Shown piece after piece: positions 49,976 to 61,046 of a DNA stretch of 64,000 bases (position 1 is the stretch's first letter; each line of letters starts with the position of its first letter). The notes below the pieces were generated by a model that saw only the letters and a program-made list of their open reading frames with translations, ran no database searches and was not told where the DNA came from. The translations under genes and the position numbers were made by a program. The DNA lies in assembly GCA_024280835.1 (NCBI GenBank), contig JAJRPJ010000010.1, positions 372,001 to 436,000 of the forward strand, in the 5' to 3' direction. This DNA is from Candidatus Zixiibacteriota bacterium. GTDB lineage: Bacteria; Zixibacteria; MSB-5A5; GN15; JACZUZ01.

Positions 49976-50668
49976 ATGAATCACAGTTTTTTCAAAAAAT
50001 CAGACTCAAGAAAATCCAGATTGAAGCGTTCAAGAAGAATTTCAAAACTAGCATTTGCTACACTTGTGATTGCTGGCTTCGCTTTTGGTGGAGCTCCAAG
50101 TGTTCAAGCTCAATCTGCGGAGTTTAGAGTTAGTGGTGATGGCGTGATTGGTCAGGATTCGGTGCAGGTTGGAAAAGACTTCTCGCTCGACCTGTATCTC
50201 ACCAACGCGGACTTGGTACTCGGTTTTACTATTGGCTTTGAAATTAATGGCAAAAATGGTCTCAAATCAGTGACTCACCTTCGCCCGAAAGGTTCAGAGG
50301 AGCTTGAGGCCAATATCAGCGCTTACAATGGCTTCGATTCTACATTCTACTGGGATATGGGCAAATTGCAAAAACCAGTTTATAGCTGGGATGGCAAATT
50401 ACCTGATTCAGTGCTCTTCGGTGGTGTCTCCATGAACAAAGGCTGGCCCAAAACAGAGAAGCCGACTCATTATATTTCAATCGCTATGCGAGCCAATCAA
50501 GCGGGTTCTATCTGTCTTGATAGCGCATTCATTCCACCGAGTGGGGCTTGGTTGTTTGCTCCCAAGACTGGTCCAGCGTGGGATGGCGAATATTGTGTTA
50601 CCGCTGTGGCTGGCAACCCCTGCGCCGGAAAAGGCAAGGGTAAGGGTAAGGGCAAAGGCAATAAATAA
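49976..50668 (+). CDS. Secreted cohesin-like protein with Gly-Lys tail
   Basis: 230 aa. Long basic n-region, signal peptide LAFATLVIAGFAFGGAPSVQAQS with AQA/QS cleavage-like site. The mature part resembles a cohesin/carbohydrate-binding beta-sandwich: VQVGKDFSLDLYLTNADLVLGFTIGFEI, LPDSVLFGGVSMN, SICLDSAFIPPSGAWLF, GPAWDGEYCVTAV. It ends AGKGKGKGKGKGNK, an alternating Gly-Lys tail. Cys pair may form a disulphide. SD GGGAG at about 49965-49969. An intrinsic terminator follows. Cell-surface or matrix role is a guess. Confidence 0.65.
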   Translation: MNHSFFKKSDSRKSRLKRSRRISKLAFATLVIAGFAFGGAPSVQAQSAEFRVSGDGVIGQDSVQVGKDFSLDLYLTNADLVLGFTIGFEINGKNGLKSVTHLRPKGSEELEANISAYNGFDSTFYWDMGKLQKPVYSWDGKLPDSVLFGGVSMNKGWPKTEKPTHYISIAMRANQAGSICLDSAFIPPSGAWLFAPKTGPAWDGEYCVTAVAGNPCAGKGKGKGKGKGNK

Positions 50669-50738
50669 GTAGTTGCCGTTTTTCGAAGCGATGTCTAAGA
50701 CGACCGCTTGAAAAAACATCATAATATTATGCTGATTG

Positions 50739-50769
50739 ATGGCCAGACGTGAATACGTCTGGCCATTTT
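50739..50769 (+). terminator. Rho-independent terminator
   Basis: ATGGCCAGACGT (50739-50750) pairs perfectly with ACGTCTGGCCAT (50755-50766) over a 4-nt loop, then TTTT. Ends the secreted-protein transcript. Confidence 0.9.
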
Positions 50770-50883
50770 CTTAGAAATAGTGGCAGTGGAAGTGATGCCC
50801 CCAAAAGCAATTGCCTTACTGGAAGGCCGATTCTCACTTGAAGCATTGGTTGAAACAAAACGAACAATTACTGAGATAAGCTA

Positions 50884-51711
50884 ATGATACTGAATAGATT
50901 GAACGCTATCTCTAACTTGACACTTCTATCGATTGCCTGCGTTTTGTCTTTAAGTGTGATTGGCGCTCCGCTGCCAGTTCTGGCAGAGAACAAACCAATC
51001 CCTACTATCCGTATTCAATCCCATGCCATGCGCACAGAACCAAATGCCGTTGATACTATTTCAATCACTATCAGTCTTAAAGCAGATAGTCTTCAGGTAG
51101 ATGATTCCAGTGGCTATGCTGGTTCTAGTAACTCCTTGATGTCAGGGATTGCTGGATTTGATTTTACTTTAGCCTATGATCGTGAGACATTTGATTTGAT
51201 TGAAGCTTTGCCTGGCGCTTTTCCAGATTCGTGCAATTGGGAGTATTTTGTAGAGCGTGACAATCCCAAATGTCCCAGCCCCTGTCCAAGAGGACTCTTC
51301 AAGATTGTCGGGTTGGTGAAATTCATGGGCTTGGACAGCGTTGAGGTTTGCCAATTGCCACCTACTGGCGGTGAGTTGGTCAAGCTCGTTCTCAAGCGCA
51401 AATCGACCACTAGGCGCAGGACTATTCCTGGGGTTCCATCAGAGCCGCTGCGTTTCTTCTGGATAGACTGCGGAGATAATTCGGTTGCCTCGAATTCCGG
51501 CAACGAGCTCTTTTTAGCTCAGTCAGTTTTTGATGCCGATGGCTCCCAGTTGCCTGAAAACACTTTTGCCCGTTTTCCCAACTACACAGGCCCGACAGGG
51601 GCTTGTTTTGATAGCGGGCGAGAAAACGCTCCTAAGCCTAGGCTGAAGTTTATCAACGCCTTGATAGTCAGCCCCGTGATAGAGCGGATTCCGACTAGAG
51701 ATTCGCTCTAG
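50884..51711 (+). CDS. Second secreted cohesin-like protein
   Basis: 275 aa; signal peptide LTLLSIACVLSLSVIGAPLPVLAEN. The body has IAGFDFTLAYDRETFDLIEALPG, then DSCNWEYFVERDNPKCPSPCPRGLFKIVG, GELVKLVLKRK, LRFFWIDCGDNSVASNSGNELFLAQSVFDADG. The FDFxLxYD start with a later GELxxLxF strand and the Cys-rich SCNWEYF stretch are a recurring layout of cohesin-like exoproteins in FCB-type candidate phyla, as I recall it. Four to six Cys suggest disulphides. Separated from the first by a terminator, so independently transcribed. Function unknown. Confidence 0.6.
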   Translation: MILNRLNAISNLTLLSIACVLSLSVIGAPLPVLAENKPIPTIRIQSHAMRTEPNAVDTISITISLKADSLQVDDSSGYAGSSNSLMSGIAGFDFTLAYDRETFDLIEALPGAFPDSCNWEYFVERDNPKCPSPCPRGLFKIVGLVKFMGLDSVEVCQLPPTGGELVKLVLKRKSTTRRRTIPGVPSEPLRFFWIDCGDNSVASNSGNELFLAQSVFDADGSQLPENTFARFPNYTGPTGACFDSGRENAPKPRLKFINALIVSPVIERIPTRDSL

Positions 51712-52998: not shown

Positions 52999-54396
52999 AT
53001 GAACAATAAAATACAAGCGCCAGTCGAACCGTTTCGCATAAAATCGATTGAGCCAATTCCGCAACTTGACGCAGCCACGCGCGAAGAAAAAATTAGAGCG
53101 GCGCATTTTAATCTCTTTAAACTTGACGCTGAACATGTTTTTATCGATTTGTTGACCGACTCGGGAACCAACGCCATGTCGGCGCGTCAATGGGCGGCAA
53201 TTATGGAGGGCGACGAATCTTATGCTGGCGCGCGTTCGTTTCGGCGCTTTGAAAAGACTGTCGAAGATATTTTCCGTATGCCATACATCCTGCCAGCGCA
53301 TCAGGGACGTGTCGCCGAGAATATCCTTTTCTCGACAATTCTAAAACCCGGCCAATTCGTTCCCAACAACACTCACTTCGATACAACTCGCGCCAATACC
53401 CTACACAAGGGTGGAGTGCCGCTTGATTTTCCCGTTGATGCTAGTAGCCCAGCGGCTGAAACTTTCTTTCGTGGCAACATGGACATCCCAGCCTTGGAAA
53501 GCTTTGTCAAAGACAAAGGCGCCGAAAATATCCCTGTGATAATTCTAACTGTGACCAATAACTCTGTCGGCGGTTTGCCAGTCTCAATGAAAAACATTCG
53601 GGAGACTGCGGAACTCTGTCGACGATTCGAAATACCACTGTTTTTCGATAGCGCTCGTTTTGCCGAAAATAGCTATTTCATCAAAAAGTATGAGCAAGGG
53701 TTTGAATCACATTCAGTCAAACAAATTGCCCAAGAGATGTTTGAACTTGGTGATGGAGTGATGATGTCGGCCAAGAAAGACGGTCTGGCGAATATTGGCG
53801 GATTCATTGCCACCAAGGACTTAGAGTTGGCGAGGCGCATGCGCGAGTTGTTGATTCTAGTTGAGGGCTATGCAACTTATGGTGGTTTAGCTGGTCGTGA
53901 TTTGGAAGCGCTGGCAACTGGGTTTGAAGAAGTCCTAGCCGAGGACTATCTCGAATACAGAATATCACAAGTGGCCTATCTTGGCTCTTTGCTTGAAGCG
54001 GCGGGTTTGCCAATTGTCAAACCAACTGGCGGTCATGCTGTTTTCATCGACGCGGGCGAGTTCTTGCCACATATCCCGACAGAGCAATTTCCAGGTCAAG
54101 CGCTTGCGGTTGCTTTGTACCGAGAGTGCGGTGTTCGTAGTGTGGAGATTGGCAGTCTGATGTTCGGTGAAGGAGGCGATGAGGAGTCGGTAGATAATTT
54201 TGTCCCAGCGCCACGTGAGTTAGTGCGTTTGGCGATGCCACGTCGAGTTTACACCAACACGCATTACGAGTATATCGCCGCACATGCCGCGAATATCGCT
54301 AAGAAAAAAGAATCACTCAAGGGACTCAAAATTTTAAGTCAGCCAAAATTATTAAGACACTTCATTTGTGACTTAGAAGAGATTAGCCAACAGTAA
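52999..54396 (+). CDS. tnaA: Tryptophanase (tryptophan indole-lyase)
   Basis: PLP-dependent beta-eliminating lyase giving indole, pyruvate and ammonia. Seen: FIDLLTDSGTNAMSARQWAA, GDESYAGARSF, LPAHQGRVAE, TVTNNSVGG, FFDSARFAENSYFIK and Schiff-base Lys260 in MMSAKKDGL. Near the C-terminus VRSVEIGSLMFG matches tryptophanase (ExIGS); tyrosine phenol-lyase has Arg in place of this Ile, so TnaA is favoured. 465 aa is normal. The 3' end is followed after 39 bp by the membrane cytochrome gene. No TnaC-like leader peptide or tnaB transporter is next to it. Confidence 0.92.
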   Translation: MNNKIQAPVEPFRIKSIEPIPQLDAATREEKIRAAHFNLFKLDAEHVFIDLLTDSGTNAMSARQWAAIMEGDESYAGARSFRRFEKTVEDIFRMPYILPAHQGRVAENILFSTILKPGQFVPNNTHFDTTRANTLHKGGVPLDFPVDASSPAAETFFRGNMDIPALESFVKDKGAENIPVIILTVTNNSVGGLPVSMKNIRETAELCRRFEIPLFFDSARFAENSYFIKKYEQGFESHSVKQIAQEMFELGDGVMMSAKKDGLANIGGFIATKDLELARRMRELLILVEGYATYGGLAGRDLEALATGFEEVLAEDYLEYRISQVAYLGSLLEAAGLPIVKPTGGHAVFIDAGEFLPHIPTEQFPGQALAVALYRECGVRSVEIGSLMFGEGGDEESVDNFVPAPRELVRLAMPRRVYTNTHYEYIAAHAANIAKKKESLKGLKILSQPKLLRHFICDLEEISQQ

Positions 54397-54435: not shown

Positions 54436-55932
54436 ATGAACTATCCATTTTGGGACATTTCAATCGGCTATGGCTTGTTTATGGCGGCCGTGGCGGTAAT
54501 TCATGTCTTCGTTTCTCATTTTGCTATTGGCGGCGGGCTGTATCTTGTCGTGACAGAACACTATGCGCGTAAACGTAATGATCTAGAAACACTCGACTAC
54601 TTGCAGCGTTTGAGCAAGTACTTCGTATTGATTACTGTCGTCTTTGGCGCTCTCTCTGGTGTGGGGATTTGGTTTATTATCGGTTTGCTGAATCCTGCGG
54701 CGACACAAATGTTGATACACAATTTCGTTTGGGTCTGGGCTACCGAATGGACATTCTTTGTCGTTGAGATACTGGCTTCGCTACTGTACTACTATGGCTG
54801 GCAAAGAATGTCAGCCAAAGACCATCTCAAACTGGGCTGGATATATTTCATCGCCGCTTGGCTGTCACTCTTTGCCATCAATGGCATCATCACTTTCATG
54901 CTCACACCAGGTGACTGGCTAGTCACTGGTGATTTCTGGGATAGTTTCTTCAATCCAACATTCTGGCCGTCGTTAGTGACACGCACAGGTATTTGCGTGA
55001 TGTTAGGCGGCTTGTACGCGATGTTGGCTATCAATCGTTCGGTCTCACCAGAAGCCAAGAAACGCATTGTGCGTAATAATGCGTTGTGGGGTCTAGTCGG
55101 TGTTGCGATAATTGTACCAGCTTTCATGTGGTATGTGCAGGTCTTACCTGGATCCCTTATGAGCGCTGCACAGGAAGTAATGCCTGGGGTTATTCATTCT
55201 GTTCGATCTACACACTGGCTCGCTGGGGCTATCGCTCTATTGCTAATTGTCTTTGGGTTGGCGAGGCCTAAACGCCAAAACAAAATTGTCACGGTTGTGA
55301 CCATGCTCCTAGCTCTCGGATGGTTCTCTGGGTTTGAATTGTTTCGCGAAGGAATCCGCAAGCCGTATGTGATTCCTGGGTATATGTACGCCAACGCTAT
55401 AGAAGTTGCCAAAATCGATGATTACACTGCCGATGGTTATTTGCCACATATAGCGTTCCGCACTGGTGACGATGGGGCTGATTTGTATCGACGAGCCTGT
55501 CAAAGTTGTCACACTATTGATGGCTATCGCAAACTGAAACCAGCGTTCGACGGCACAGATATTGAGTTTATCGCAGGAGTAGTGCGTGGCTCTGAGGCTG
55601 TCATTGGAGCGATGCCACCTTTCTACGGAACGGTTGAAGAGAGTGAAGCTTTAGCTGAGTATATCCAGCGCTTTACCGACAATCGTCCTCTCGAAGAAGT
55701 CTACGAATTAGCAGGTGTTGAACTAGGCAAGAAAGTCTTTGAAGTACGCTGTGGTGTGTGTCATGAGTTTGGTGGACGCAACGACAACCGCGAATCGCTA
55801 ACAGGACTGTCACCTGACGAATATGACGAAATCCTAGAATACTCTGGCGAATTCGATGATAATATGCCAGCTTTCACAGGCACAACCGCCCAATGGGAAG
55901 CTCTTGTTCTATACTTGCAAACTTTAGAGTAG
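54436..55932 (+). CDS. bd-like membrane cytochrome subunit with two C-terminal haem c sites
   Basis: 498 aa from ATG 54436 (AGGGGGG about 9 nt ahead). Residues 1-300 hold about eight membrane helices with conserved His (AVIHVFVSHFAIGGG) and WATEWTFFVVEI, resembling the CydA-type subunit of the cytochrome bd superfamily, but I find no GRQPW quinol-loop motif. After residue 330 comes a periplasmic tail with CQSCH (355-359) and CGVCH (439-443), each followed by a downstream Met (AMPPFYG, NMPAFTG), i.e. two class I haem c domains. Such CydA-cytochrome c fusions have been grouped as OR-C type bd-like oxidases; whether this one reduces oxygen is unknown. Followed by a polytopic partner. Confidence 0.75.
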   Translation: MNYPFWDISIGYGLFMAAVAVIHVFVSHFAIGGGLYLVVTEHYARKRNDLETLDYLQRLSKYFVLITVVFGALSGVGIWFIIGLLNPAATQMLIHNFVWVWATEWTFFVVEILASLLYYYGWQRMSAKDHLKLGWIYFIAAWLSLFAINGIITFMLTPGDWLVTGDFWDSFFNPTFWPSLVTRTGICVMLGGLYAMLAINRSVSPEAKKRIVRNNALWGLVGVAIIVPAFMWYVQVLPGSLMSAAQEVMPGVIHSVRSTHWLAGAIALLLIVFGLARPKRQNKIVTVVTMLLALGWFSGFELFREGIRKPYVIPGYMYANAIEVAKIDDYTADGYLPHIAFRTGDDGADLYRRACQSCHTIDGYRKLKPAFDGTDIEFIAGVVRGSEAVIGAMPPFYGTVEESEALAEYIQRFTDNRPLEEVYELAGVELGKKVFEVRCGVCHEFGGRNDNRESLTGLSPDEYDEILEYSGEFDDNMPAFTGTTAQWEALVLYLQTLE

Positions 55933-56015
55933 GCAAATACACGAACAGGACAAGTAGCTAAAGAAACAGTATTGAACAATAATTGAAAAGATAGAATCAG
56001 GGAAAAGGGGAAACT

Positions 56016-57029
56016 ATGGAAGATGCCAGCATGAGTTTTTTGTCGGCTCCACTTTGGATAATTGAAGCGCTACATATTGTCACACTAACATTGCACTTCG
56101 CGGCTATGAATTTCTTAGTGGGTGGAATGATTGTTGTTCTATTTGGTAAATTTACCGATCGTTGGAATAATCCTGTCGTTCAGAAGTTCATCAAATTATT
56201 TCCTTCAGCAATGGCGGCGACTATTTCGTTTGGCGTGGCGCCTTTGCTGTTTGTGCAACTTGTCTATGGCGAACAAATCTATTCAGCCTCAATTGTTAGC
56301 GGTTGGTTGTGGTGGTGGATTGTACCGGCGGCGATTGTGGGTTATTATTTTCTCTATGCGGCGTCGTTTGACAAGACTACTGCCTCACGCAAGAAAATAT
56401 TCCTCTCATTAGCGTTAGTGTGCTTTGTATATATATCCTACATCTATAGCGCCGTTTTTTCATTGGCCGAAAACCCGAATCTCTACAAAGAACTCTATGC
56501 TCAAGCGCAGGATGGCATGGTTATCAATCCCGAGATCGGTTCTTACATTTTTCGATGGTTGCATATGCTCCTCGGGGCTGTGACGGTCGGTGGTTTTTTT
56601 GTTGGACTACTTGGACGTGACAATGAGCGGGCCTATGAAGTCGGTAGAAAGTTTTTTCTGCATGGCATGATAGCCGCGTCATTTGTCGGTACGATCTATA
56701 TGATGACCTTCGGTGAGTATCTGAAACCATTCATGCGTAGCTCAGCAATTTGGTGGTTAACAGGTGCAGTAACCTTATCATTTGGCTCTTTACATCTTTT
56801 TGCCAAGAAAAAGTTCATGGCTTCAGGCACTGCCTTGTTTGTGTCTCTCTTGGGGATGGTCGTTGTTCGACATGAAGTTCGTATTCTCCGTCTGGCGGAT
56901 AGTTTTAATCCAGATTCTCTGGCCGTGCAAACTCAGTGGGCGCCCTTGATGATTTTCCTAGTTAGTTTCACAGCCGCAATAGCTGTGATTTGGTATATGG
57001 TGAAGTTGTTCCTACGGAAAACTGACTAA
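56016..57029 (+). CDS. Polytopic membrane subunit partnering the bd-like cytochrome
   Basis: 337 aa with about eight to nine hydrophobic helices (IIEALHIVTLTLHFAAMNFLVGG, MAATISFGVAPLLFVQLVYG, LWWWIVPAAIVGYYFLYAA, IFLSLALVCFVYISYIYSAVF, WLHMLLGAVTVGGFFVGLL, and others). Conserved His in HIVTLTLH and HMLLGA could ligate haem b. No CydB signature is evident; it is about the size and position of a second subunit for the protein encoded 83 bp upstream. AGGGG before ATG 56016 is a good SD. A stable hairpin follows at 57031-57063. Could also be called CydA-like; low sequence certainty. Confidence 0.65.
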   Translation: MEDASMSFLSAPLWIIEALHIVTLTLHFAAMNFLVGGMIVVLFGKFTDRWNNPVVQKFIKLFPSAMAATISFGVAPLLFVQLVYGEQIYSASIVSGWLWWWIVPAAIVGYYFLYAASFDKTTASRKKIFLSLALVCFVYISYIYSAVFSLAENPNLYKELYAQAQDGMVINPEIGSYIFRWLHMLLGAVTVGGFFVGLLGRDNERAYEVGRKFFLHGMIAASFVGTIYMMTFGEYLKPFMRSSAIWWLTGAVTLSFGSLHLFAKKKFMASGTALFVSLLGMVVVRHEVRILRLADSFNPDSLAVQTQWAPLMIFLVSFTAAIAVIWYMVKLFLRKTD

Positions 57030-57167: not shown

Positions 57168-59111
57168 ATGTTGTTTTCTGGATGGAAGTATAGTTGTGCG
57201 CTCAGCATAGTTGTGGCTTTATCGTTAATCTCAGGCTCTGCAATTGGGCAAGGGTTTGGAAAGGACATTAAGAAAAGCCTACTGGTGGAGGCACCAATAA
57301 AGTTTCCCGAAGCCAGCGCCGTCGTGATTTTCGACAGAGGAACAATCGACATTCGCAAGCACGATATACTGCGAACGCGACATATCAGGCTGAAGATTCT
57401 GACCGCCGCTGGCATTGAAGATGTGGGCGAGCGTTCAGTATGGTTTCACAAAACACTAGACAAAATCAAGAACTTCCGCGCACGGACATATACTCTTGAT
57501 GGCGAAAAACACAAAGTTGAGAAGAACGCCATCTTCGACAAAGAGAGTGGCGTCTTCAAAGAGCGGACTTTCACTTTTCCCGCTCTCGAAATCGGATGCG
57601 TAATTGAGTACGAATATGAAATGGTCAGCAAGCGCTTCCGCTATCTAAGTCCTTGGTATTTTCAAGGCGATTTGTACACACTCTATTCCTCTGTGACTGT
57701 TTCTATCCCACCAGGGTTTGAATATGATATCAGCTATCAAAATGTACCTCGCTCAGCGCAAACTGCTGAGAAGTCCACTCTGATGAACTTTGAAAATCCC
57801 AATAGCACGATTGCAGTTTATCAATGGAGCCGCACTGATATGCCGCCGATTACCGATGAACCCTATATGAGCGCGATGGATGATTATCGTTCTTCCATTC
57901 GCTTCCAGCTACTCAAATTCGAAAACCGCAGAAACTATATCGTCTATATCAAAGATTGGGCTACTCTAGGTAACGACTTTCAAGAGTACGCAGACGAATA
58001 TCTCAACAAGAAAAAAGACATCAAGAAACTCGCCCTAGAGATTACTCAGGGCTTGGAAAATGAGTCCGACAAGTCTGAAGCGTTGTATGATTATGTCTCT
58101 TTTGAAATTGAGACATCCGACAAATATGTGAACTACTATTTTGCCAATGAAACAATTAGTGGATTACTAAAAAATCGCCACGGCTCAGGCGAGGAAAAGA
58201 ATCTGCTACTAGCTGAGTTACATCAGGCAGTAGGAATAGAATGCTGGGCGACATTGATTAGCCGTCGCGCCAATGCGAAATTCAACCCAGGGTCACCGAA
58301 TTTGCGTGACTTTGATTATCTGATAGCTCTGGCAAAGTTTTCAAATGGTTGGAAGTTTCTGGATGCGACAGATGAACTCTCACCCTATGGTCTGCTACCT
58401 CCGCAATGTCTAACTGATGGTGGTCTTCTAATCAATGGCAAGCAATCTTCGTTGGTCGGGCTGACGGTTTTGCCAATCAAGTCTGTTCGTATAGACACAA
58501 CTAGAATCTTTCTCGATGAATCTGGCGCGGCGATTTGTAGCCTAAAATGTATATTCACTGGTTATTATGCCGCTAGATATAGTGATTACTATTCTAAGCT
58601 AGAAGCCGAACAGTTTGTCAAAGAGCGTTTTCTCGATAGATCGGGAGTTGATTATTCCCTCGAATCGTATCATTGCGAGCTAGATAGTCTAGAACGCTTC
58701 GTAGTGACAGCTGTCTTTACCACGGACGATATGACAACCGAACTGGATAACAACGTCTTGGTGAAACCAGTCTGCTTTAGTTTCCGTCATAATCCATTCG
58801 AAAGCGAGAAGCGATTCTTCCCTATTGATTTCCTGTATCCGTTTACTTACAAGAATGTTGTCGAGTACAATTTCTATGGCTCGCCTAGGGATTTTTCATT
58901 ACCAAAAAACATTGCCCACAAAATGGATGGAGCTAGTTTCTATCGCGCCTGTGCTCTGACCGACAGTTCAATTTTTGTTCGAACAGAACTAAAAATCAAA
59001 AAACCGCTTTTCGGCCCAGGGCGATACCGTGACGTGAGAGGCTTATTTGACATCATGCAAGTCGCAAGCGAGGACGAAGTAGTAGCGATTTATCCCGAGT
59101 CTTCTGAATAG
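57168..59111 (+). CDS. DUF3857/transglutaminase-like secreted protein, catalytically degenerate
   Basis: 647 aa; signal peptide CALSIVVALSLISGSAIGQG. DUF3857 region about 50-230 (RHIRLKILTAAGIEDVGERS, ALEIGCVIEYEYEMVSKRF), then a transglutaminase-like domain about 285-405 and a strand-rich C-terminal part. Aligning by hand with the next gene, the catalytic Cys site is Gly341 (HGSGEEKNLLL against YGDCKDMSTLL), the His site is Asp383 (DFDYL against GFGHV), and the Asp399 (FLDAT) is kept. So the cysteine-peptidase triad is lost and a binding role is likely. SD GGAGG at about 57160. Forms a pair with the next gene, 42 bp on. Confidence 0.8.
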   Translation: MLFSGWKYSCALSIVVALSLISGSAIGQGFGKDIKKSLLVEAPIKFPEASAVVIFDRGTIDIRKHDILRTRHIRLKILTAAGIEDVGERSVWFHKTLDKIKNFRARTYTLDGEKHKVEKNAIFDKESGVFKERTFTFPALEIGCVIEYEYEMVSKRFRYLSPWYFQGDLYTLYSSVTVSIPPGFEYDISYQNVPRSAQTAEKSTLMNFENPNSTIAVYQWSRTDMPPITDEPYMSAMDDYRSSIRFQLLKFENRRNYIVYIKDWATLGNDFQEYADEYLNKKKDIKKLALEITQGLENESDKSEALYDYVSFEIETSDKYVNYYFANETISGLLKNRHGSGEEKNLLLAELHQAVGIECWATLISRRANAKFNPGSPNLRDFDYLIALAKFSNGWKFLDATDELSPYGLLPPQCLTDGGLLINGKQSSLVGLTVLPIKSVRIDTTRIFLDESGAAICSLKCIFTGYYAARYSDYYSKLEAEQFVKERFLDRSGVDYSLESYHCELDSLERFVVTAVFTTDDMTTELDNNVLVKPVCFSFRHNPFESEKRFFPIDFLYPFTYKNVVEYNFYGSPRDFSLPKNIAHKMDGASFYRACALTDSSIFVRTELKIKKPLFGPGRYRDVRGLFDIMQVASEDEVVAIYPESSE

Positions 59112-59153
59112 AGACTTCTGACTCACTCTTGGGATTATACAAACTGACCACCT

Positions 59154-61046
59154 ATGAAGAGCACAGCAAATATCATCTTAGTCGGAGTAGTTTTGGTACT
59201 TTGCTTATGTTTTCAAGCTGCCGCCGCAGCGGGGACTGGAGCCAAGTATGATTTTCGGACTTGGGAATGTGATATTGATGAGTCAGGATTTAGACTTAAG
59301 GTTCACCACAAAATCACTATCTATGATGAAACCGAAATCGGCTACAAGGAATTGTCGTTCAGCGAAAGCGATTTTGTCAAACTCAAAAATGTGACGATTC
59401 ATGTTCTGGATGCAAATGGCAACGAAATCTACAAGCGAACAAAGAAAGATATGACCAAAGCCTGCGGCTATGCAGGATATTCGCTCTATTCTGATAATTG
59501 TGTTTACTACACAAGTTTGGATGCCCCGCATTTCCCATATTCCATAGAATACGAATATGAGAAGGTGTCGAGTTCGTTGTTCTTCTGGGGGGATGTTGAT
59601 TTCGAGCAATACATTCCAGTTGACTACGCCTCATACACATTGCGCACTCCGCATGACTTCAACTTCCGGCACAAGTTTGAGGGTTTGAAGCATAGTTTTG
59701 ATACGTACGAAGATGGCCCTGATATTGTCTATGTCTGGAACGCTGGGCCAATTCCCAAGAAAGATAGAATCCGTTATGCGCCAGCAGAGTTCAGCGCTTT
59801 AGCTGAATTGACATTTGTTGCGGAAGATTTGAAACTAGGGCGCTTCCGACTTGAAGGTTGCACTTGGGAAAATATCGGTCATTGGTATACCGAGATGTAT
59901 CAGGACAAGTATTTGCCCATTCCTGACGAATCTCTTGTTACAGATACTGCGCTCGAAAAAGATATCCACGAGCAGGTTAAGAGTCACTATGAAGACATCA
60001 CTGCGAATATCCGCTATGTGGCAATCGAAATTGGTGTTGGTGGTTGGCAGCCATATGCCGCATCATTAACTCAAAAACGTGGCTATGGTGATTGCAAAGA
60101 CATGAGTACGTTGCTTGTTTCAAGGTTGCAGAACAATGACATCGAAGCTTTTCAGGTTCTGGTTAGGACTCGGGGTAGTGGTCCACTTTCAGAAGATTTT
60201 GCGGCGCTGGGATTCGGGCATGTCATTTCTGTTTGTGTTGCAGATGAGGACACAGTTTGGATGGATCCCACCTGTGGCAATTGCCCTTTTGGCGAATTAC
60301 CTTGGCAGGACGAAGACATTCAAGTCTTGGTTGTCACTGATAACGGTGGAGAGCTCTGGCGCACCCCAGCCAGTACCCCCAAAGACAATCTCACAGAGAG
60401 AGTCACTCGCTATAGAATCAACGGTGATTTCAAAGCCAACTTTCAAACAACCATGACTGTTCATGGCAATAGGGCAACAGGGTTACGTGGCTATCTGGCC
60501 GGTATTGGAGGCGATGAACTCAGACGCAAGATCAATGATTTGTTTCGTGGCTCAGAGAAGAAGTTCAAAATTGATTCCTTCACAGTCATTAACTTGAATG
60601 ATAAAAACAAACCCATCTCAATCAACATTTCTGCGACTATGTTGCAACACCCCAAAAAAATAGTCAATTCTCTGTATTGTAACCCTTTCATTTTCAGTGG
60701 ACTCAGTCGCCGCGAGAAAGAAGATTTGACCGACAGGGAAGTACCGCTTGACTTAGTCTATCCGAGTCTGACAACTGACATTGTCACCATAATCTGGGAT
60801 TCGACGCTCGCAGTAGATTCAGTCTCCATACCCAAGAATGACAGCCTAAGCTTCCCATTTGGAGAGCTAGGCTATTCAGCAAGTAAGTTTGCAGATGGTG
60901 GTCAAGACAGTGTACAAATCGAGTTCTCAAAGTCTCATGGGTTATATTCTGTCCCGCCTGAATCTTTCCCTGACTTCGAAACCTACCGCAAAAAGTACAA
61001 GAAACTGCTCAAGAAGCACGTTAAGCTGTACCTGAGCGACAACTAA
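59154..61046 (+). CDS. DUF3857/transglutaminase-like secreted protein with intact triad
   Basis: 630 aa; signal peptide ANIILVGVVLVLCLCFQAAAAAG (cut near 26). DUF3857 domain about 30-235 (KELSFSESDFVKLKNVTIHVLDANG, YSIEYEYEKVSS), transglutaminase-like core about 270-380 with GYGDCKDMSTLL (Cys314), FGHVISV (His356) and VWMDPT (Asp371): a complete Cys-His-Asp set. The C-terminal third is strand-rich. Probably periplasmic; substrate unknown. Paralogue of the gene 42 bp upstream, so the two look like a duplicated active/inactive pair in one operon. Confidence 0.85.
   Translation: MKSTANIILVGVVLVLCLCFQAAAAAGTGAKYDFRTWECDIDESGFRLKVHHKITIYDETEIGYKELSFSESDFVKLKNVTIHVLDANGNEIYKRTKKDMTKACGYAGYSLYSDNCVYYTSLDAPHFPYSIEYEYEKVSSSLFFWGDVDFEQYIPVDYASYTLRTPHDFNFRHKFEGLKHSFDTYEDGPDIVYVWNAGPIPKKDRIRYAPAEFSALAELTFVAEDLKLGRFRLEGCTWENIGHWYTEMYQDKYLPIPDESLVTDTALEKDIHEQVKSHYEDITANIRYVAIEIGVGGWQPYAASLTQKRGYGDCKDMSTLLVSRLQNNDIEAFQVLVRTRGSGPLSEDFAALGFGHVISVCVADEDTVWMDPTCGNCPFGELPWQDEDIQVLVVTDNGGELWRTPASTPKDNLTERVTRYRINGDFKANFQTTMTVHGNRATGLRGYLAGIGGDELRRKINDLFRGSEKKFKIDSFTVINLNDKNKPISINISATMLQHPKKIVNSLYCNPFIFSGLSRREKEDLTDREVPLDLVYPSLTTDIVTIIWDSTLAVDSVSIPKNDSLSFPFGELGYSASKFADGGQDSVQIEFSKSHGLYSVPPESFPDFETYRKKYKKLLKKHVKLYLSDN

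Follow-up and report, generated by a model that had tools for sequence, protein, structure and literature searches.

In the OR-C branch of the cytochrome bd superfamily, the CydA-type subunit carries a c-type cytochrome domain. Archaeal CydAA' is said to have been shown to use quinol in the 2021 work of Murali. In CydA of Escherichia coli, His19 is one of the liganding and acidic residues at the two-haem active site. In the same protein, His186 and Met393 hold haem b558, Glu445 is a ligand of haem b595, and Glu99 points towards haem d (PMC6853902). The OR-C group has already been named (Murali, Gennis and Hemp 2021, as referred to in PMC10839748, PMC13189123 and PMC11707229) and is widespread. 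A 2021 review (PMC8509429) describes all biochemically characterised bd enzymes as quinol oxidases (qOR) and gives cytochrome c, or possibly a different non-quinol donor, as the electron source of the non-qOR families. An earlier note on the present DNA held that few enzymes of this kind are characterised, which, given that review, is too generous if anything. No OR-C member with measured chemistry was found in the literature examined, to which the 2021 paper of Murali itself does not belong.

The window, the whole stretch of DNA analysed here (64,000 nucleotides from a Candidatus Zixiibacteriota bacterium), contains two genes, A and B, both open reading frames lying where the earlier note had placed them. 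To judge from sequence, the pair most likely belongs to the published OR-C branch. Like OR-C, it has a CydA-type core, a two-haem active site, no quinol site, a c domain and, presumably, a non-quinol donor; unlike all relatives sampled outside the phylum, which have one c-haem domain, it has two. The OR-C-likeness previously suggested for this locus is borne out, as are the bd fold and family, the loss of the Q-loop and the c-haem tail. What is new is modest: the independent demonstration that B is a CydA paralogue, the phylum-specific di-haem tail and the possible sole-oxidase genomes.

Membrane Core and Active Site of Gene A

Gene A (54,436–55,932, + strand) encodes a CydA-type subunit of 498 residues with a C-terminal di-haem c tail. 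The ATG at 54,436 (MNYPFWDI...) is kept in relatives, and the stop lies at 55,932. The CydA-like membrane core read from the sequence earlier is recognised by Pfam (PF01654, E = 2.8e-12, residues 16–230), and PF13442 matches in two stretches (E = 2.4e-14), both families scoring well beyond chance. A profile of gene A matches canonical CydA with an HH probability of 97.1. In the AlphaFold2 (AF2) model (pLDDT 80), eight transmembrane (TM) helices are followed by the c domains. The fold comparison, set beforehand, gave no best match outside the bd family: matches 1–15 in the PDB are all cytochrome bd subunits, with CydA chains on top. Membership of the cytochrome bd superfamily is therefore supported by both sequence and fold. 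The AF2 helices and the K/R count predict an 8-TM core (residues 1–311; 54,436–55,368, + strand) with both termini periplasmic, since the loops carry 14 K/R inside vs. three outside; by this positive-inside rule, the c-haem tail is also predicted to be periplasmic. In effect, the model depicts a CydA without its Q-loop, in which TM9 has been swapped for cytochrome c.

Like CydAB of E. coli (bd-I, 6RX4/6RKO), gene A shows the bd fold and the active-site residues: H19, E99, E107 and E445 of the E. coli protein correspond to H23, E104, E111 and E305. H23 (54,502–54,504, + strand) is invariant in 83/83 and 119/119 sequences; E104 (54,745–54,747, + strand), on the haem d side, and E111, E301 and E305 are likewise invariant across the 119 A-type sequences. 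The absence of bd haem ligands, which had been named as a possible objection, is thus not what is observed at the O2 site. E305 (55,348–55,350, + strand), the counterpart of the haem b595 ligand, belongs to an ExxRKPY motif at the end of TM8 (E305-G-I-R308-K-P-Y), matching E445-Y-G-R448-Q-P-W of E. coli, and the 119 proteins all share its E, R, K and P. The equivalence of E445 and E305 rests on the shared ExxRxP motif, the position at the end of TM8 and matches to PF01654 positions 316–381 in orthologues (e.g., G008), as the aligner's own mapping of E445/GRQPW was misplaced by the Q-loop and the tail.

Unlike CydAB, gene A has no Q-loop, the TM6–TM7 loop being only ~13 residues long in the AF2 model, and no counterparts of H186 and M393, the b558 ligands: among the 119 sequences, an invariant R183 occupies the His186 region, and nothing corresponds to M393. 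Nor were conserved counterparts of K252 and E257 found in the A-type proteins. The earlier description of a core without a GRQPW quinol loop therefore holds for the Q-loop; the literal GRQPW string is absent from gene A, but the motif is modified (to ExxRKPY), not gone. An O2 site that is kept together with a quinol-side haem that is lost is what would be expected if c-haems supply the electrons.

The c-Haem Tail

The two CxxCH domains recognised at first sight are real. Domain 1 (55,465–55,665, + strand; PF13442, residues 344–410) contains CQSCH (55,498–55,512) and, as distal ligand, M393 of gene A's own numbering; domain 2 (55,714–55,929, + strand; PF00034) contains CGVCH (55,750–55,764) and distal M477. 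Each CxxCH is trailed by a Met-Pro, as in His/Met c-haem domains. All sampled A-type proteins have a c tail. In relatives from outside the phylum, which all have one CxxCH, the only c domain aligns with domain 1, and domain 2 is additional: two CxxCH motifs occur in 32 of the 39 sampled phylum proteins, and domain 2 was found in none of those sampled elsewhere. On this sampling, a second c-haem is particular to this phylum.

Gene B Is a Diverged CydA Paralogue

Gene B (56,016–57,029, + strand, 337 residues) is the partner, for which eight or nine spans had been proposed; its AF2 model (pLDDT 92) has nine predicted helices of membrane-spanning length. The sequence gave no meaningful match to Pfam, NCBIfam or the PDB, either singly or as a 40-member profile, and the CydA Pfam family matched none of the 40 tested members of the B family. 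In the fold comparison, matches 1–14 in the PDB are chains of either CydA or CydB, two proteins with a common fold that this search does not separate. Profile comparison does: the HH probability is 95.9 against A and 69.1 against CydA, compared with 0.3 against CydB, and this 0.3% rules out the partner as a CydB. Furthermore, iterated HMMs started from B retrieve A, and the tree resolves A and B as two separate monophyletic groups with strong support, on branches flagged as long by the program. By these three lines of evidence, gene B is a paralogue of CydA (A') and not a CydB.

This differs from CydAB and resembles the archaeal CydAA' and the OR-N CydAA' of nitrite oxidisers, where two CydA-type paralogues make up the enzyme, although A here carries covalent c-haem domains. 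H27 (which aligns with H19), Q81 and R180 are invariant in B, and R285 nearly so; the active-site glutamates are not kept. B may bind one more haem through H27. Proteins of this type are mostly annotated as "hypothetical protein" and are likely to be part of the enzyme.

Distribution of the Pair

The A-B pair has been kept at ~120 loci in many phyla, with the two genes side by side or close to it, and it is common in Zixibacteria. Almost every one of 80 loci, drawn from Zixibacteria, Ignavibacteriota, Bacteroidota, Acidobacteriota, Campylobacterota, Aquificota, Verrucomicrobiota and Pseudomonadota, has both genes. B directly adjoins A at most loci and lies a few genes upstream in Acidobacteriaceae; the two genes are thus inherited together. 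A-B-like pairs are also borne by plasmids of Thermus, Methylosinus and Agrobacterium (L176, L177 and L178), where A is annotated as "cytochrome c" or "c-type cytochrome" and the adjoining gene mostly as "hypothetical protein". In the last two, a probable two-component system follows the pair.

Two tandem copies of A with one B occur in Bacteroidota and Ignavibacteria (L005, 5378–9087; L006, 4698–8416), near an apparent haem-copper oxidase cluster. A deeper-branching c-tailed CydA type, sister to the A group, was found at two loci (L130, 5353–6615, − strand; L131, 6429–7685, + strand); it has ~420 residues, one CxxCH and ExxRKPY, and no B-type partner was detected near it.

Respiratory Gene Content

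The host genome (3.31 Mb, 96% complete) encodes exactly one PF01654 protein, gene A, and no CydB (PF02322). It has one haem-copper oxidase (caa3) beside an apparent alternative complex III cluster (ACIII-caa3), and one bc-type cytochrome b whose gene neighbours encode a Rieske-like protein, multihaem cytochromes and a CcmF-like protein for c-haem maturation; apart from the HMM hits, the names in these clusters were read from sequence by eye. A bc-type complex cluster (L166, G000:C12:225000-234500) includes cytochromes with nine, six and four CxxCH motifs.

Among 132 genomes of the phylum, in sets compiled by hand from tables, the c-tailed type occurs in ~52 (in two of these as the deeper relative), canonical CydA in 51 and both together in 11. 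Eight genomes have the c-tailed type only and no haem-copper oxidase above the cut-off, absence in draft genomes being weak evidence; four of the eight are at least 95% complete. A bc-type cytochrome b is present in all three tested of these four (G020, G045 and G071). As metagenome assemblies, these genomes could be incomplete or belong to anaerobes; they fit a chain running from a bc complex through cytochrome c to bd. Zixibacteria accordingly offer clear test cases, with genomes whose only detected O2 reductase is the pair.

Proposed Enzyme and Alternative Readings

We consider it likely that A and B form a heterodimeric oxygen reductase of the bd superfamily, fed by periplasmic cytochrome c and not by membrane quinol. 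The bd fold, the invariant active site, the missing Q-loop and b558 site, the predicted periplasmic tail, the co-occurrence of A and B, the host's gene content (no CydB, but a bc-type cytochrome b, ACIII-caa3 and a CcmF-like gene), the sole-reductase genomes and the donors given for non-qOR families in the 2021 review all point this way: as the quinol and haem b558 sites are lost and two haem-c domains built in, electrons probably go from cytochrome c to O2. A bc-type complex or alternative complex III would reduce the periplasmic donor, whose electrons would reach the O2 site of A and its two haems (H23/E104/E305) by way of both tail c-haems. There, O2 would be reduced to water, taking up cytoplasmic protons, presumably in a coupled reaction, and B would stand in for CydB as the dimer's structural half. 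The cbb3 and caa3 haem-copper oxidases likewise have an O2 site fed by c-haem domains, fused or associated, but their fold is unrelated, and the pair here has no copper site. If true, a cytochrome c oxidase with a bd fold would add another independent link between cytochrome c and O2, and would account for how organisms lacking CydAB, or lacking haem-copper oxidases altogether, could respire. A more far-reaching version is doubtful: in some Zixibacteria, the di-haem-tailed bd would be the sole terminal oxidase of the bc complex–cytochrome c–bd chain, with a B that bears a haem at H27, in a pseudo-symmetric dimer unlike CydAB.

Part of the GRQPW motif survives in ExxRKPY, and this counts against a cytochrome c-fed enzyme. 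The same relationship would suit a pair that is still a quinol oxidase, its c tail being an accessory electron outlet or inlet; with the Q-loop, the K252/E257 counterparts and the b558 ligands all missing from A, and a c tail on every sampled protein of its type, we find this quite improbable. Somewhat less improbable, yet still unlikely, is that the pair reduces another substrate (NO or peroxide) or scavenges O2 for protection and not for respiration. Detoxifying side roles are known for canonical bd enzymes (PMC10839748), and a host that also has ACIII-caa3 may not need the pair at high O2. However, A has the active-site residues of an O2 reductase, no O2 reductase other than the pair was detected in some near-complete relatives, and the phylum loci show no conserved stress or denitrification neighbours.

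The upstream genes had suggested redox balancing of amino-acid catabolism. They are indeed an asparaginase II (PF06089, E = 2.9e-100) and an enzyme of the tryptophanase/tyrosine phenol-lyase family (52,999–54,396), which scores to the tryptophanase subfamily, below the equivalog cut-offs for tryptophanase (TnaA) and tyrosine phenol-lyase. In the window, only ~40 bp separate the lyase gene from A, as might suit a specialised redox valve tied to these two enzymes. The arrangement is nevertheless confined to the genus (L002/L113), a methyltransferase gene intervenes in the sister species, and it is absent at all other phylum loci searched. This synteny rules out a co-operonic function and makes the valve very improbable; a cytochrome c-fed O2 reductase remains our preferred reading.

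Other Neighbouring Genes

Acetyltransferase-like, thioredoxin-like, DnaE-like and CoaX-like genes recur beside the pair in the phylum, all but the thioredoxin-like one named by eye. They resemble a housekeeping context and were dismissed as a functional clue. In the window, two probably secreted proteins without a Pfam match (49,976–51,711) are kept in the sister species. Downstream of the pair and on the same strand, two successive DUF3857/transglutaminase-like proteins are encoded (57,168–61,046).
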